A DNA stretch of 64,000 nucleotides from Umbribacter vaginalis (GCA_001552935.1 KQ959676.1:36323-100322); one strand, 5' to 3'. Counted from the first letter of the stretch, positions 38,880-44,884 are shown. A program made the numbers and translations. Notes: generated by a model not told the origin, from the sequence alone.

Positions 38880-41045
38880 CTACCTTAGCACAGCGTCAGT
38901 AGCACGCCCATGCGTCACTTTGGATACAGATGCAGTCGTAGCCTCATGCGCCACTTTGGATACAGCTTCGCGTACGGCTGTAGCTTCATGTTCAACTGGT
39001 GACTCATTTGGTGGTGCAATCTCAGGCGCAGGTGAAGCCTTATGTTCTGCTTGGCTTATTGGCTCAGCGTTGTTATTTGTTTCAGCTGTGCGCTTATTTT
39101 CTCGTTTGAAATGGTCTAACTTTTCTTTCATGTTATATGATTTTCCATGTACTTCAATAGTACCATCATTATTAAAGCACATGCCTTGCAATGAACAAGG
39201 AGGGAGCTCCAACTTAAGAGTATCAAACTGATCAGACGTAATGCCATATTGTTTACATACTTCGTCTTTTATAGCATCAGAGGACTTTTCTGACACTGCA
39301 GCAACCTGAACAGGCTTAACGTGCGTATCTTGAGGAAGCGTTGTGAGTACAGCAGGTGCTCCTGTATCATAGTACGCAACATAAAAACCTTGTAAGTCAC
39401 CGATTTCTTTAAAGATGTGCGTAATGTGTCTTTGTGTAGCCTGATTGTTTACCAACGCATGGTATTCATACTCGTAATCGGCAGGAAGCGTCCACGTATC
39501 AGCATGTTCGACGCGATACTTCAACGTTGCAACAACATCACGTGCACTAAATCCGTGAAAGTCGGATGGATACGACTTAGCAAACTGGATAATATCACGA
39601 ATTGCATGACTGTGCGCATGTCGCTCTCCTGCAAGATGATAGACGTAAAATGTTTGTTGGTCTTTGTCAAAAAAGCGCATATATTTACAATCTTCCCAGG
39701 GCATTTTATCGAGAGGAACAATATTTTTTGCTTCTACTGAATCGTAGGTAAATACTTCATCATTATTAAGAGGTTTCAGTGGTTGTGTATGCGTGCCTAA
39801 GTATTCGCCAATTTTTATATGAGGATATAATGCGCTGGGGTCAGTAAATGTTACACGCTCTTCGCCGTTTTTATAATAAATATGCCAGTGATCTTCATGC
39901 CTTAAAATTTTAACGACTTCGTTTTCATCAGCGGCTGCATGAGGAAATGTTCCTTGACTATCTCCAGTTGACGAACCATTTTCCTGCGGAGTGTTCGGTG
40001 TATCAGATGAGCTGTTGGTCGTGCCAGGAACGCTTTGTGGAGTAGAATGTTCATCACCAAGAGGCGAATGTGTTCCCGTTCCCGCTGATGAATGGTGCGA
40101 ACCAACATACGTACCGATACGTATCCCTGGAAATATCGCCTGAGGATTATCATACGTAATCACTTCCTCACCTGCGGCTGTATAACAATGATAGTGATCA
40201 GCATGCTGTAATATTTTTGTAATGGGCATCTGCGCTAATTCAGAAAGCTTTACCACACGCACAAACGATAAACCCAAAGGGTTGTTAGCATTACTTGCGT
40301 CATTTGAGTGTGCTCCTTGTTGTGCTGCAGACGATGCGTCTTTGAGATCTGCTTGCGCAGATGGCATGCCATCGGGGGAATTCAGCTCGCTTTCGCTCGG
40401 TGTATCAGCAGCAAAACCCTGATCAGCTGTATTGTAGTCAGCTTGCACGCTGCCATGGCTTCCAGTATACGTTCCAATGGGAATATGTGGATATAAAGCC
40501 GATGGATTGGCGTAGGTGATAAATTCTTTTCCTGTATTCGTAAATATATGATAGTGGTCGCCGTGTTTAAGAATTTTCACTACATGAACTGCCATATTTT
40601 GCAATGTAGCACGTGATACTACCGAAGCAGTATTCGACAAATCACTTGCTTGTGTTGCCTTTGTTGGGTCGGAATACGTAATAATTTCACGTCCGTCTTT
40701 GGTAAATACATGCCAGTGATCTCCGTGTTTTATTATTTTTACAATTTCACTTGATGCCACTTTTTCAGCATCAAGCAATACCGTCGTGCTCGTATCAGCA
40801 GCATAAGCACTTGTTTTATCCTGAAATGCCTCAGTATTATAAGAAAGCGCGCCCTTTGATGCATAGACATTTGACAGCTCCGCTGCAGACAAATTACCTG
40901 CAACGTTAGACATGTCTGCTTGATGAGGTAGTATGCTACACGCAGGAAGCGTTATAAGAACGCAAGCGCACAGCGCGCCAGCAGCAAATGACGTCATTTT
41001 CGTCGTACGTTTCATATTCATATGGTTCATATTCGTGTGTTTCAT
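38880..41045 (-). CDS. Large histidine-triad (Pht-like) zinc-binding lipoprotein
   Basis: 721 residues from ATG 41045. The N-terminus has a signal peptide with lipobox-like LPAC (Cys36). Four HxxHxH triads follow: HGDHWH (107-112), HGDHYH (161-166), HADHYH (281-286), HEDHWH (383-388). Each sits in a repeat of the form VVKILxHxDHYHxxxxxGxExITYxDPxAL, the last three with a trailing PxIxIGxYxGxH. A fifth His-rich site (HAHSH, 476-480) lies in a C-terminal domain, and the last ~80 residues are low-complexity. This is the architecture of streptococcal histidine-triad proteins, which bind zinc at the surface and pass it to the uptake system. The start codon overlaps the znuB stop (ATGA), and the AAGGAAA site lies in znuB. 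Confidence 0.88.
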   Translation of the reverse strand: MKHTNMNHMNMKRTTKMTSFAAGALCACVLITLPACSILPHQADMSNVAGNLSAAELSNVYASKGALSYNTEAFQDKTSAYAADTSTTVLLDAEKVASSEIVKIIKHGDHWHVFTKDGREIITYSDPTKATQASDLSNTASVVSRATLQNMAVHVVKILKHGDHYHIFTNTGKEFITYANPSALYPHIPIGTYTGSHGSVQADYNTADQGFAADTPSESELNSPDGMPSAQADLKDASSAAQQGAHSNDASNANNPLGLSFVRVVKLSELAQMPITKILQHADHYHCYTAAGEEVITYDNPQAIFPGIRIGTYVGSHHSSAGTGTHSPLGDEHSTPQSVPGTTNSSSDTPNTPQENGSSTGDSQGTFPHAAADENEVVKILRHEDHWHIYYKNGEERVTFTDPSALYPHIKIGEYLGTHTQPLKPLNNDEVFTYDSVEAKNIVPLDKMPWEDCKYMRFFDKDQQTFYVYHLAGERHAHSHAIRDIIQFAKSYPSDFHGFSARDVVATLKYRVEHADTWTLPADYEYEYHALVNNQATQRHITHIFKEIGDLQGFYVAYYDTGAPAVLTTLPQDTHVKPVQVAAVSEKSSDAIKDEVCKQYGITSDQFDTLKLELPPCSLQGMCFNNDGTIEVHGKSYNMKEKLDHFKRENKRTAETNNNAEPISQAEHKASPAPEIAPPNESPVEHEATAVREAVSKVAHEATTASVSKVTHGRATDAVLR

Positions 41046-41833
41046 GATAATTTCCTTTTCAAAACAAGCGTAATAACTAATACAACAACAGCGAGCAATA
41101 CAATTACCGAGCCAGGCTTTAAATTTCCATAATATGAAATGCATAAACCGCAGTACACAAAGGCAAGCGAAAATGCTATTCCACCGAGCAAAACACTTCG
41201 ATACGTGCGAAACAATTGCATAGCGCACAGTGTTGGAATAACAAGCAACGAGGACACAATAAGCGATCCGATAGTTTTTGCTGCAAGCGAAATAGACGCC
41301 GCAACAAGCAGTGAAAATACAAACGCTAATACGCGCTCATTAATACCAAGAAATTGAGCTGCAACGCTATCAAATGTTGCTAAATACAAACGAGTAGCGA
41401 TAATGCGATATGCGATGCAAACGAGTGCTGATATAACAATCACGAGGTAAAACTCGGTATCGGAAATAGTGACAATCGAACCAAACAGAAATGATGTTAC
41501 CTGCGCGCCGTTTCCTGCAAATCCTGTAAAAATACCAGCACAGCCAATTGCAAACGCTAACACAACAACCGTAGAAATCTCCTGGTAGGCTGGTAATTTA
41601 TCGCTTATTGCCTGCACGCTTAAAACACCAATAATACAAGCGATTACCGAGCCCAGCAACGGATGAAACCCAAAGCATAATCCCGCAGCAACACCTGCAA
41701 GTGATGCGTGAGCAAGCGTATCACCCATTTGAGAAAGGCGCTTGAGTGTTACGGGAAGTCCCACCAGAGGCAACAAAATAGCTAGGATACTTCCAACAAT
41801 AAAAGCGCGTTGCATAAACTCAAACTCAAACAT
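41042..41833 (-). CDS. znuB: Zinc/manganese ABC transporter permease (ZnuB-like)
   Basis: A 263-residue ABC-3 family permease with about eight helices: MQRAFIVGSILAILLPLVGLPVTLKRLSQMGDTLAHASLAGVAAG (family opening), the VTSFLFGSIVTISDTEF segment, and INERVLAFVFSLLVAASISLAAKTIGSLIVSSLLVIPTLCAMQL near the end. It overlaps the ATPase gene by 8 bp at its start and the histidine-triad gene by 4 bp at its end. This tight coupling, and the histidine-rich partner, favour zinc over manganese or iron as substrate. Confidence 0.92.
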   Translation of the reverse strand: MFEFEFMQRAFIVGSILAILLPLVGLPVTLKRLSQMGDTLAHASLAGVAAGLCFGFHPLLGSVIACIIGVLSVQAISDKLPAYQEISTVVVLAFAIGCAGIFTGFAGNGAQVTSFLFGSIVTISDTEFYLVIVISALVCIAYRIIATRLYLATFDSVAAQFLGINERVLAFVFSLLVAASISLAAKTIGSLIVSSLLVIPTLCAMQLFRTYRSVLLGGIAFSLAFVYCGLCISYYGNLKPGSVIVLLAVVVLVITLVLKRKLS

Positions 41834-42890
41834 GGCGCGCCACCCGCTTTTTACAATCTACCTGTTTGTCCTGTTTAATCTGCTCTGCTGGCGAAATCTG
41901 ATCAGCTGGCGAAATCTTTTCTGCTGGTGAAATCTTTTCTGCTAACCGATCCTGTTCAATATCGCCATCTTTTTGAAGCAAGGCATCTTTTTGAAGCAAG
42001 GTATCCTGTTCGGGCAGATTATTCTGAGTAAGCTGCTTAATGTGCATATTTTCAATACGATACAGCTGAGTTGCATACGCGCGCACCTCATCTACATGGT
42101 GCGTTACGATAAGCACAGCCATACCGTCTGAACAACAACGAGACAAATGTTTCATAATCACAGCACTTGACTGAGCGTCGATACCTGACGTTGGCTCGTC
42201 AAGTACCAAAAATTGCGGATTTTTCAACAAAGCAAGCAATAATGCTAAACGCTGTAATTGTCCACCCGACAACTCTCGCAGCGTCGATTTCACCACAGCA
42301 TTCAACTGAAATTCATCAAGCAGCGAACTTGCTCGCTGAAATACCTGTTCACCAAAACCAAACAAGCGCGTTTTCTTCAAATACGAACAATGCTTATGAA
42401 TAACCTCCTCTACTGTCGTAGGAAATATGCGATACGCTTGAAAATTGCTTTGCGATACATAGGAAATGCGGCTGCGCTGCTGGATCGACGCTCCCGTTTC
42501 ACCAAAAAGCCTGATTGTGCCTTGCTGCGGTGTTAACAATCCAAGCACTAATGCAAGCAGCGTTGTTTTGCCGGCTCCGTTTGCACCCATCAGCGCTACG
42601 AAATTCCCACGATGAATGCAAAGATGTGCACCCTGCAAAATAGCGCGCGTGTCGCCACCCGATTGCGCCGCATAGGAAAAGGACACATCGTCCATCGCAA
42701 GCACTTCATCACGCGATGCATGAAGCGTATACGTATCGGCCTTTGAACAGCACGACTGCTTGCTTGTGCGTGCATCCACTGTTCCACTGAAATAAGCGCA
42801 CTTAGCTTGCAGAAAATCTGCTTGCAGTGCACTTTTCAATAGATTGCTGGGTAATAAAGAAGCTTTAATCATTGCGCTTCCTTTACACAA
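41826..42890 (-). CDS. znuC: Zinc ABC transporter ATP-binding protein with repetitive C-terminal tail (ZnuC-like)
   Basis: A 354-residue ATPase, long for this family (~250). The nucleotide-binding domain includes MDDVSFSYAAQS, Walker A GANGAGKTTLLALVLGLLTPQQG, ISYVSQSNFQAYRIFPTTVEEVI, signature LRELSGGQLQRLALLLAL, Walker B FLVLDEPTSGID and VLIVTHHVDEVRAYATQLYRI. About 55 residues precede it with no known domain. After the domain comes a ~70-residue tail of 6-residue repeats (LLQKDA and AEKISP types) encoded by 18-bp tandem units. It overlaps znuA by 8 bp and znuB by 8 bp. Confidence 0.92.
   Translation of the reverse strand: MCKGSAMIKASLLPSNLLKSALQADFLQAKCAYFSGTVDARTSKQSCCSKADTYTLHASRDEVLAMDDVSFSYAAQSGGDTRAILQGAHLCIHRGNFVALMGANGAGKTTLLALVLGLLTPQQGTIRLFGETGASIQQRSRISYVSQSNFQAYRIFPTTVEEVIHKHCSYLKKTRLFGFGEQVFQRASSLLDEFQLNAVVKSTLRELSGGQLQRLALLLALLKNPQFLVLDEPTSGIDAQSSAVIMKHLSRCCSDGMAVLIVTHHVDEVRAYATQLYRIENMHIKQLTQNNLPEQDTLLQKDALLQKDGDIEQDRLAEKISPAEKISPADQISPAEQIKQDKQVDCKKRVARHV
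41887..42002 (-). repeat. Two sets of 18-bp in-frame tandem repeats in the znuC tail
   Basis: Set one: 41887-41904, 41905-41922, 41923-41940 and a decayed 41941-41958, with gctggygaaatc as the common start. Set two: 41967-41984 and 41985-42002, identical except the last base. All units are six codons and remain in frame. Confidence 0.85.
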
Positions 42891-43875
42891 ACGATTCCAT
42901 TAAAGCATGCAAGTTTCGCTTCATCAGTTCTAAATAACCAGCGTTCACATCGTCTTCGCTTAAATGCTCCATTGTGAAGAGCGTTGATGTGTGGGCACCC
43001 GTTGTTCGCGCGAGCGTTTGTGCTACTTTTGGCGTTGCGCTTCCTTCAAAGAAGATCGTAGTGATGTTGTGCGCCTTTACGAATTCGGCAATTTTAGCAA
43101 GCTGAGCTGCGCTTGGCTCGTTATCAGGAGAAATACCAGTCACTGCCACTTGAGTAAGCCCGTAATCGCGTGCAAGATAATTAAATGCAGCGTGCGACGC
43201 TACAAAATATCGCTTTTCAGCTGGCACGGTGCGCAACTGATCTGCAAACTGCTTGTCAAGTTCCTCAAATTCAGCGCGTGCTTGCTGGTAATTTTCCTGA
43301 TAAAACGCGGCATGAGCACTATCGAGCGCACAAAACTTTTTGCACAGCGTATCAAGCTGTTCAAGTGCGTTTTTAATGCTCAGCCACGTATGAGGATTAA
43401 CGCTTGAATGGTCTCCTGGTTTTGCATCTTTGTTTTGAAGAAGCGTTAAACCCTGCGAAAGATCTAAAAATCGCTCGTCGTGGTGCATGCTCTCTTTAAG
43501 CTGCGGAATAAACGTTTCCATGCCAGCGCCGTTATAGATAATTAAATCGGCTTTGGTAAGGCGCGCCATATCTGCTGTTTTTAGTTCAAAATCGTGAGGC
43601 TCTTGGTTGCCTTGGATAATAGTGCGTACATCCCAGCTATCCTTTACAATCCGCTTAGTAAGATCGTATACAGGAAAAAAACTGGTATATACTACAGGCT
43701 TTGAAGTGTGTACAGCATCAGCGCCTGTTGGTGATGTCTGCTTTTGATTACTTTGATCAGATGGGGTGCTGCATGATACAAGTGCGCACGCACAGGCGAT
43801 GATGCAAGCAAGAAAAACTACCCGACAAGCTGCTGCTATCGATCGCGCTCTTTTACTGCCTAATAAACTGTTCAT
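42883..43875 (-). CDS. znuA: Zinc ABC transporter substrate-binding lipoprotein (ZnuA-like)
   Basis: A 330-residue cluster A-I binding protein. The signal peptide has a lipobox (ALVSCS). VYTSFFPVYDLTKRIVKDSWDVRTIIQGNQEPHDFELKTADMARL gives the first metal-ligand His (EPHDFE), VNPHTWLS the second, FVASHAAFNYLARDYGL the third, and TIFFEGSATPKVAQTLARTTGAHTSTL the acidic region. There is no long His-rich loop inside ZnuA itself; the histidine-triad lipoprotein downstream may supply that function. First gene of the operon, with a promoter and inverted repeat upstream. Confidence 0.93.
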   Translation of the reverse strand: MNSLLGSKRARSIAAACRVVFLACIIACACALVSCSTPSDQSNQKQTSPTGADAVHTSKPVVYTSFFPVYDLTKRIVKDSWDVRTIIQGNQEPHDFELKTADMARLTKADLIIYNGAGMETFIPQLKESMHHDERFLDLSQGLTLLQNKDAKPGDHSSVNPHTWLSIKNALEQLDTLCKKFCALDSAHAAFYQENYQQARAEFEELDKQFADQLRTVPAEKRYFVASHAAFNYLARDYGLTQVAVTGISPDNEPSAAQLAKIAEFVKAHNITTIFFEGSATPKVAQTLARTTGAHTSTLFTMEHLSEDDVNAGYLELMKRNLHALMESFV

Positions 43876-44305
43876 TATGTATTCCCTTCCTCAACACAAA
43901 TCCTAAGCACTGGATGCTTCGGTGTTGAAGGTAAGTATACATAAATTGATAAGTGAATTGAATTTGAATTTCATTTTAATATTCAATTACATGAATTATT
44001 CAAGAAACACAATGTAACATAACTATGAGCAAGCGATTATGCACGGGTCACATTCCTTGCTCAGCTTAATGTACCAATTATCTGGCTGTAAAAGAGTAGG
44101 CGTAATATGCTGCAGCACATAATATTCGCAGCTGATCAATATACTTTTCATAAAGCTTGCATAACTGCCATGTTGCTTATCAATGGAACAAATTCACTGC
44201 ACGAATGGCACAAATCCACTGCAAAGCGTGACAGCTACGCATAACACTCGTCATATAACACGAGCGTGAACTCACTTTACTTGTTGTATTGTTTTGGGTT
44301 TCGGA
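43876..44305. promoter_or_regulatory. znu promoter region with inverted repeat over the -35
   Basis: On the minus strand, -10 TATACT corresponds to 43934-43939 and -35 TTCAAT to 43957-43962 (17 bp apart). An inverted repeat AATTGAAT (43956-43963) and ATTCAATT (43981-43988), with 17-bp spacing and further TTGAAT/TTTCA repetitions inside, covers the -35. This looks like the site of a metal-dependent repressor such as Zur, AdcR or a DtxR-type protein; I cannot tell which. The rest of the 430-bp space contains no gene. Confidence 0.5.
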
Positions 44306-44598: not shown

Positions 44599-44803
44599 AA
44601 TGATACCTCCTATATACTTGGGGTAGATGCTGAGGAGCGAATTCCCTAACACCTTTGTTACTTTCGCGCTGCTTTGCTTTCTTGCCCTTAAGCTTAGGAG
44701 CTCCTTTTATGCCTAGATTTATCAGTTCAATAATTATTCCTGCTAAAACCGAACATAAAAGATTTTGGAGCAAGTCTATAAAAAGGAGCGAACTCCCCAG
44801 CAT
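44519..44803 (-). pseudogene. Run-on copy of a small lysine-tailed membrane peptide
   Basis: The first ~45 residues (hydrophobic LLCSVLAGIIIELINLGIK, then GAPKLKGKKAK) match the peptide of 44812-44928 almost residue for residue. In this copy the stop has gone out of frame, so the frame reads through into unrelated sequence overlapping the 32-residue peptide gene. I see no good ribosome site at its ATG. It is best read as one arm of a tandem duplication in decay. Confidence 0.5.
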
Positions 44804-44884
44804 CTTTGTTCTTACTGCTCCTTTGCTTTCTTGCGCTTAAGCTTAGGAGCTCCTTTTATGCCTCGCTTTATCAGTTCAATAATC
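44634..44884. repeat. ~100-bp tandem duplication
   Basis: Copy A 44634-44735 and copy B 44785-44884 share long near-identical blocks, for example gcttaggagctccttttatgcc and tttatcagttcaataat, with small indels between. Period is about 150 bp. Each copy encodes, on the minus strand, the C-terminal half of a small lysine-tailed membrane peptide. Confidence 0.85.

Follow-up and report, generated by a model that had tools for sequence, protein, structure and literature searches.

Why does a zinc importer operon in a bacterium far from the streptococci include a gene for a protein with repeated histidine triads, and what might that protein do? The question is raised by Umbribacter vaginalis (GCA_001552935.1 KQ959676.1:36323-100322), in which a stretch of 64,000 nucleotides, here called the window, carries the genes for ZnuA, ZnuC, ZnuB and a 721-residue histidine-triad protein at positions 38880-43875. 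An earlier reading of the DNA (the sequence-only reading) proposed that the triad protein is related to the Pht proteins of streptococci and serves ZnuABC as a dedicated zinc antenna. The analysis presented here points, with good probability, to a surface zinc trap that hands zinc to ZnuA, as PhtD does to AdcAII.

RESULTS

The triad gene belongs to a zinc importer operon

The four genes are arranged on the minus strand in the order znuA, znuC, znuB and triad gene, and they form a single tight cluster.

42883-43875, minus strand: znuA, zinc-type solute-binding lipoprotein, 330 amino acids (PF01297, E = 2.8e-81)
41826-42890, minus strand: znuC, ATPase, 354 amino acids with a TTG start, alternative ATG at 42872 (ABC_tran, E = 8e-29)
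41042-41833, minus strand: znuB, permease, 263 amino acids (ABC-3, E = 2e-48)
38880-41045, minus strand: Pht-like histidine-triad protein, exported, 721 amino acids, possibly a lipoprotein (LPAC), with orthologues at the same operon position in three congeners

The cluster holds the components of a zinc ATP-binding cassette (ABC) importer (cluster A-I, ZnuABC) in one operon: a PF01297 binding protein with zinc-type ligands, an ABC-3 permease and an ATPase. Among proteins of solved structure, ZnuA is closest to the zinc proteins YcdH and AdcA and to the AdcAII/Lmb group, and its H, H, H and E positions align with those of YcdH and AdcA; we take these aligned histidines and the glutamate to be the expected zinc ligands.

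A profile scan of a public genome collection (GTDB genomes) yielded 38 loci with a triad gene, spanning Coriobacteriia (Slackia exigua, Atopobium, Olegusella, Olsenella), Actinomycetes (Varibaculum) and Bacillota (Anaerococcus, Parvimonas, Helcococcus, Eggerthia, Bulleidia and other Erysipelotrichaceae). In 28 of these loci, which are spread across Coriobacteriia, Varibaculum and Bacillota, the triad gene lies together with the three importer genes on one strand. Five more contain znuA and the triad gene only, like adcAII-phtD, and znuA is adjacent in 33 of the 38 in total. This recurrent association, which lies far beyond chance, ties the triad protein to zinc import and bears out its proposed linkage to a zinc-type ABC importer.

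Triads are conserved and the connecting segments vary

The sequence-only reading reported four HxxHxH triads, and exact matches begin at residues 107, 161, 281 and 383. With a signal sequence visible in the translation, the protein has more than the two triads that at least are expected of an exported Pht protein. It also retains a recognizable C-terminal module.

40710-40727, minus strand: triad 1, HGDHWH, residues 107-112, the family's most conserved repeat
40548-40565, minus strand: triad 2, HGDHYH, residues 161-166
40188-40205, minus strand: triad 3, HADHYH, residues 281-286
39882-39899, minus strand: triad 4, HEDHWH, residues 383-388
39507-39758, minus strand: C-terminal Pht module, residues 430-513, colinear with PhtD 606-721 via congeners (alignment)
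39606-39638, minus strand: decayed fifth triad, HLAGERHAHSH, in place of the congeners' HHDHYH

The repeats are of a divergent type, VVKILxHGDHYHxYTxxGxEYITYxDP, and they are not a product of chance, because they are conserved in about 30 homologues from two phyla. The triads, of which there are 3 to 8 per protein across loci, are the most conserved part of the protein; the linkers vary. The block around the first triad hardly changes across the two phyla, which fits the critical role that the first triad of PhtD is said to have, to judge from the title of a 2016 paper by Eijkelkamp. A further segment at residues 587-637 (window positions of about 39130-39290), YGITSDQF...CFNNDGTIEVHGKSYNMK, resembles a triad unit lacking its triad, and can be compared with SIIIEDGYMKIPHGDHMHSY in L055.

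The lipobox-like LPAC that had been noticed is present, but the status of the protein as a lipoprotein is insecure: strict lipobox rules (the PROSITE lipoprotein rule) disallow proline at position -2, and the three congeners contain no lipobox at all.

In AlphaFold models, each repeat is a three-stranded unit with the triad at a hairpin, and the units are joined by low-confidence linkers. The predicted local distance difference test (pLDDT) averages 64 for the full-length model, with repeats 2 and 3 near 90, and is 76 for a two-repeat model. A similar build, with three strands per unit and the triad in a hairpin, has been described for PhtD and PhtA (PMC3842936), but fold searches of the PDB listed no Pht entry.

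Multiple sites on long linkers that are modeled with low confidence and are probably disordered would also suit a protein that mainly stores zinc, buffering the surface against swings without direct transfer of metal to ZnuA, and the variation from three to eight triads between loci is compatible with such a role. The triad gene is strictly linked to znuA, which in some species is its only importer neighbor, and this suggests instead a partnership with the binding protein; a PhtD domain has been shown to pass zinc to AdcAII (PMC3842936). Storage as the main function is less likely than not.

A second alternative gives the protein a main role in contact with the host, as a surface adhesin or complement-interacting factor that is expressed according to zinc status; pneumococcal Pht has been interpreted along these lines. 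Many carriers are, by their record names, oral, vaginal or otherwise host-associated anaerobes, and Pht proteins are reported to act on complement, in work cited by PMC6689063. The operon context is, however, purely one of zinc import, and conservation is concentrated in the triads, with variable linkers, and we regard this role as improbable.

Homologues relate the family to Pht

The relationship to Pht that the sequence-only reading proposed was borne out through homologues. The histidine-triad profile PF04270 is matched by 23 of 31 homologues (best E = 3.8e-12), and its curated cut-off of 27 bits is exceeded by the three full-length homologues tested (L044, 46.4 bits; L030, 31.1 bits; L026, 30.4 bits). 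A congener's protein, L013, matches PhtD (9p1v) with an E value of 1.1e-12 through the C-terminal module; the window protein alone has no sequence match in the PDB. TIGR01363 is matched by 2 of the 31 homologues at E <= 0.01 and has no match in the window protein. Among 395 sampled genomes of the class of Bulleidia, a single genome with PF04270 was recovered, which yielded a further Pht-type protein, L055. Whole-genome PF04270 searches came back blank even for genomes containing proteins matched by hmmscan, and those negatives were not used. Because homologues match both PF04270 and PhtD, the family as a whole is, by sequence comparison, related to Pht, and the window protein is formally not a member.

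In congeners the C-terminal module has a canonical triad, IPHHDHYHY, followed by VATLKYLVLHPESRPKGENGWGS, and is colinear with the same PhtD segment. In the window protein the module is recognizable, but the fifth, canonical Pht triad, kept in homologues, has decayed to YHLAGERHAHSHAI, which had been overlooked. The part of the family that is clearly Pht-like has decayed here, and the four repeats first noticed are therefore its divergent part. The nearest protein in the tree, L034, likewise lacks the canonical unit, and both proteins are long-branched.

Several results weigh against a Pht-like zinc trap. The full-length window protein has no PF04270 match at E <= 1, and residues 1-420 alone score 20.1 bits, below the cut-off. 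The Pht PROSITE motif that was built from the structures of PhtD and PhtA (Bersch et al. 2013, PMC3842936), of which at least two hits are expected, matches none of the four window triads and occurs in none of the homologues. The sole canonical Pht module of the protein is without its triad, and for repeats 2 to 4 no acidic fourth ligand equivalent to E63 of PhtD was identified. PDB fold searches with the full-length and two-repeat models gave no significant match, and neither PhtA nor PhtD was among the matches listed. A clear direct profile match of the four repeats thus did not materialize, and by the sequence-only reading's own refuting condition (no match of the repeats to the histidine-triad profile) the protein is borderline, because its repeats fall below the cut-off and fail the Pht motif.

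These failures leave room for an explanation in which the four repeats and the streptococcal Pht units have separate ancestries: a hairpin module of independent origin would have gained HxxHxH and joined a true Pht module, whose triad was later lost in this species. PF04270 covers only about 14 residues, at the triad itself, and the predicted fold of the repeats is closer to the periplasmic domain of FtsH than to any Pht entry, FtsH periplasmic domains being the top-listed matches for the repeat 2 region (residues 140-195). That similarity is weak (Z of about 6), and values under 8 may reflect a common arrangement. Moreover, the repeats of L041 (29.1 bits) and of L026 (27.7 bits), taken by themselves, exceed the PF04270 cut-off, and the divergent repeat and the canonical Pht unit coexist in single proteins such as L044. 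An independent origin, which concerns ancestry and is compatible with a function as a zinc trap, is thus conceivable but doubtful. Its extended form is rather unlikely, namely that a zinc-binding module of non-Pht origin, fused to a true Pht module, spread between mucosal Actinomycetota and Bacillota together with the whole importer operon, and that the repeats took over completely here. Separately, weak matches to PF06480 (FtsH_ext; E of about 0.5) occur in the homologues L026 and L044.

Probable horizontal movement of the operon

The inferred actinobacterial host is supported. Each of the three remaining genomes of the genus has an orthologue of the triad protein, and 96 additional genomes from the family and order have none. 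Relatives of ZnuA are also sparse there, being found in 11 or 12 of 56 genomes outside the genus at identities of up to 41%. Recent acquisition by this genome alone is ruled out, given that all four genomes of the genus that were searched carry the operon.

In trees of ZnuA and of the triad protein, both built without streptococcal sequences, the Varibaculum sequences join two congeners inside Coriobacteriia (support 95/90 and 97/95). This nesting agrees with the transfer that had been suspected in the history of the locus, and the operon has probably moved horizontally. The agreement between the two trees suggests that it moved as a unit. One record within Varibaculum in both trees (L020) is labelled Tissierella sp. 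Marseille-P2918, a label that may be wrong.

A candidate operator and a second zinc locus

A palindrome lies 81 to 101 bp upstream of znuA.

43956-43976, no strand assigned: palindromic operator candidate AAATGAAATTCAAATTCAATT, Fur/Zur-type, a 21-bp dyad

A motif search of the regions upstream of 11 actinobacterial znuA genes recovered the dyad AWWTGAAAA-N5-TTCAAAT with a score of 142, versus 75 to 83 for shuffled sequences, and the regions upstream of znuA in Bacillota contain a different dyad, TGCRAATNATTTGCA, with a score of 129 versus 71 to 77, both scores partly reflecting the relatedness of the sequences. The genome has one Fur-family gene, and a genome-wide scan with the operator motif was uninformative at three mismatches. 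Zinc-dependent control of the operon by a Fur/Zur-type repressor is likely on these grounds. Farther upstream of znuA, at window positions 44633-44883, segments of 67 bp (94% identical) and 27 bp are duplicated about 150 bp apart among small open reading frames.

The same genome contains a second zinc locus (G000 C39, about 263-267 kb; L058), encoding a ZinT-type lipoprotein (219 amino acids; PF09223, 9e-13), a zinc binding protein of 446 amino acids with a long insert, and an ATPase. As is generally known, the pneumococcus has an AdcA with a ZinT domain and an AdcAII that is the partner of Pht (see also PMC3842936), and the two zinc systems of this genome recall that pair.

Gene overlaps are not conserved

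The sequence-only reading gave overlaps of 8, 8 and 4 bp within the operon and proposed that coupled translation holds the triad protein at a fixed ratio to ZnuB. The overlap of 8 bp between znuC and znuB, visible in the sequence of the junction, and that of 4 bp (ATGA) between znuB and the triad gene are confirmed; the latter most likely begins at position 41045, with an ATG that overlaps the stop codon of znuB and is preceded by AAGGAAA. The overlap of 8 bp between znuA and znuC is insecure, as it requires the TTG start of znuC: the alternative ATG at 42872, with AAGGAAG directly upstream, would leave a gap of 10 bp after znuA. In the three congeners, this overlap is 8 bp. ZnuC (41826-42890) is also extended by about 55 residues at its N terminus and carries a C-terminal tail with short repeats (AEKISPAEKISPADQISPAEQI), both of which are missing from congeners.

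Coupling is not a conserved feature, because, of the loci compared, this genome alone has the 4-bp overlap. Most other loci have a gap of 5 to 43 bp before the triad gene, and one congener has a gap of up to 265 bp, spacing that rules out coupled translation as a conserved mechanism; the proposed fixed ratio to ZnuB is not supported.

DISCUSSION

The explanation we favor is a zinc-repressed operon that would supply a complete importer (ZnuA, ZnuC and ZnuB) together with an exported triad protein, its HxxHxH hairpin units carried on flexible linkers. These units would capture zinc at the cell surface, outside the membrane, and pass it to ZnuA and on to ZnuBC, and uptake would be higher at times of zinc withholding by host tissue. 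A like service of PhtD to AdcAII is assumed in the pneumococcus, for which the transfer step is documented (PMC3842936).

The operon has several partial counterparts. The streptococcal Pht (HTP) proteins of the adcAII(lmb)-phtD operon share multiple HxxHxH triads, export and linkage to a zinc-type binding protein, and PhtD shares the C-terminal module common to homologues of the window protein; the streptococcal operon differs in comprising a binding protein and Pht only, whereas the window has a complete ABC operon, divergent repeats and a lost canonical triad. Pht proteins are, as had been remarked, best known from streptococci, but a survey from 2013 noted that, in Slackia exigua ATCC 700122, adcA is followed by an htp gene, and concluded that such genes are older than Streptococcus (PMC3603884). 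That actinobacterial gene (L047), a direct homologue, adjoins znuA; unlike the window locus, it has no adjacent znuC and znuB, and its product keeps the fifth triad (FVIPHQNHFHY).

The AztABCD system of Paracoccus is likewise a zinc ABC operon that includes the gene for a dedicated zinc-delivering chaperone, and the top NCBIfam matches of ZnuA, ZnuB and ZnuC in the window are AztC, AztB and AztA. The scores for AztA, AztB and AztC (125, 109 and 198 bits) are, however, far below the respective cut-offs of 220, 280 and 350 bits, and the fourth gene of the window encodes the triad protein rather than AztD. In the actinobacterium Corynebacterium diphtheriae, the zinc ABC operon ZnuAECB has zinc-binding partners in the cell wall, ZnuF and ZnuG, which the authors compared with Pht (PMC12445094), but ZnuF and ZnuG are distinct from Pht in sequence, have HxD and HxH motifs, and are located in the wall. 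ZinT with ZnuA, and AdcA with its fused ZinT, also pair a zinc binding protein with an accessory recruiter; ZinT is a lipocalin-like domain without triads, and in this genome it adjoins the second binding protein.

A text search of the literature, with most subscription papers outside its scope, turned up no publication about such genes in Anaerococcus, Parvimonas, Atopobium or Coriobacteriia, and no description of a complete four-gene operon in two phyla, of the divergent repeat type or of decay of the canonical unit.

Streptococci are probably not alone in scavenging zinc at the surface with histidine triads. This capacity looks like the property of a transferable operon, complete importer included, in oral, vaginal and other host-associated anaerobes that face zinc withholding by the host. 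The natural variation of the family, in the number of triads, in the loss or retention of the canonical unit and in lipoprotein status, makes zinc delivery by triads testable outside streptococci.

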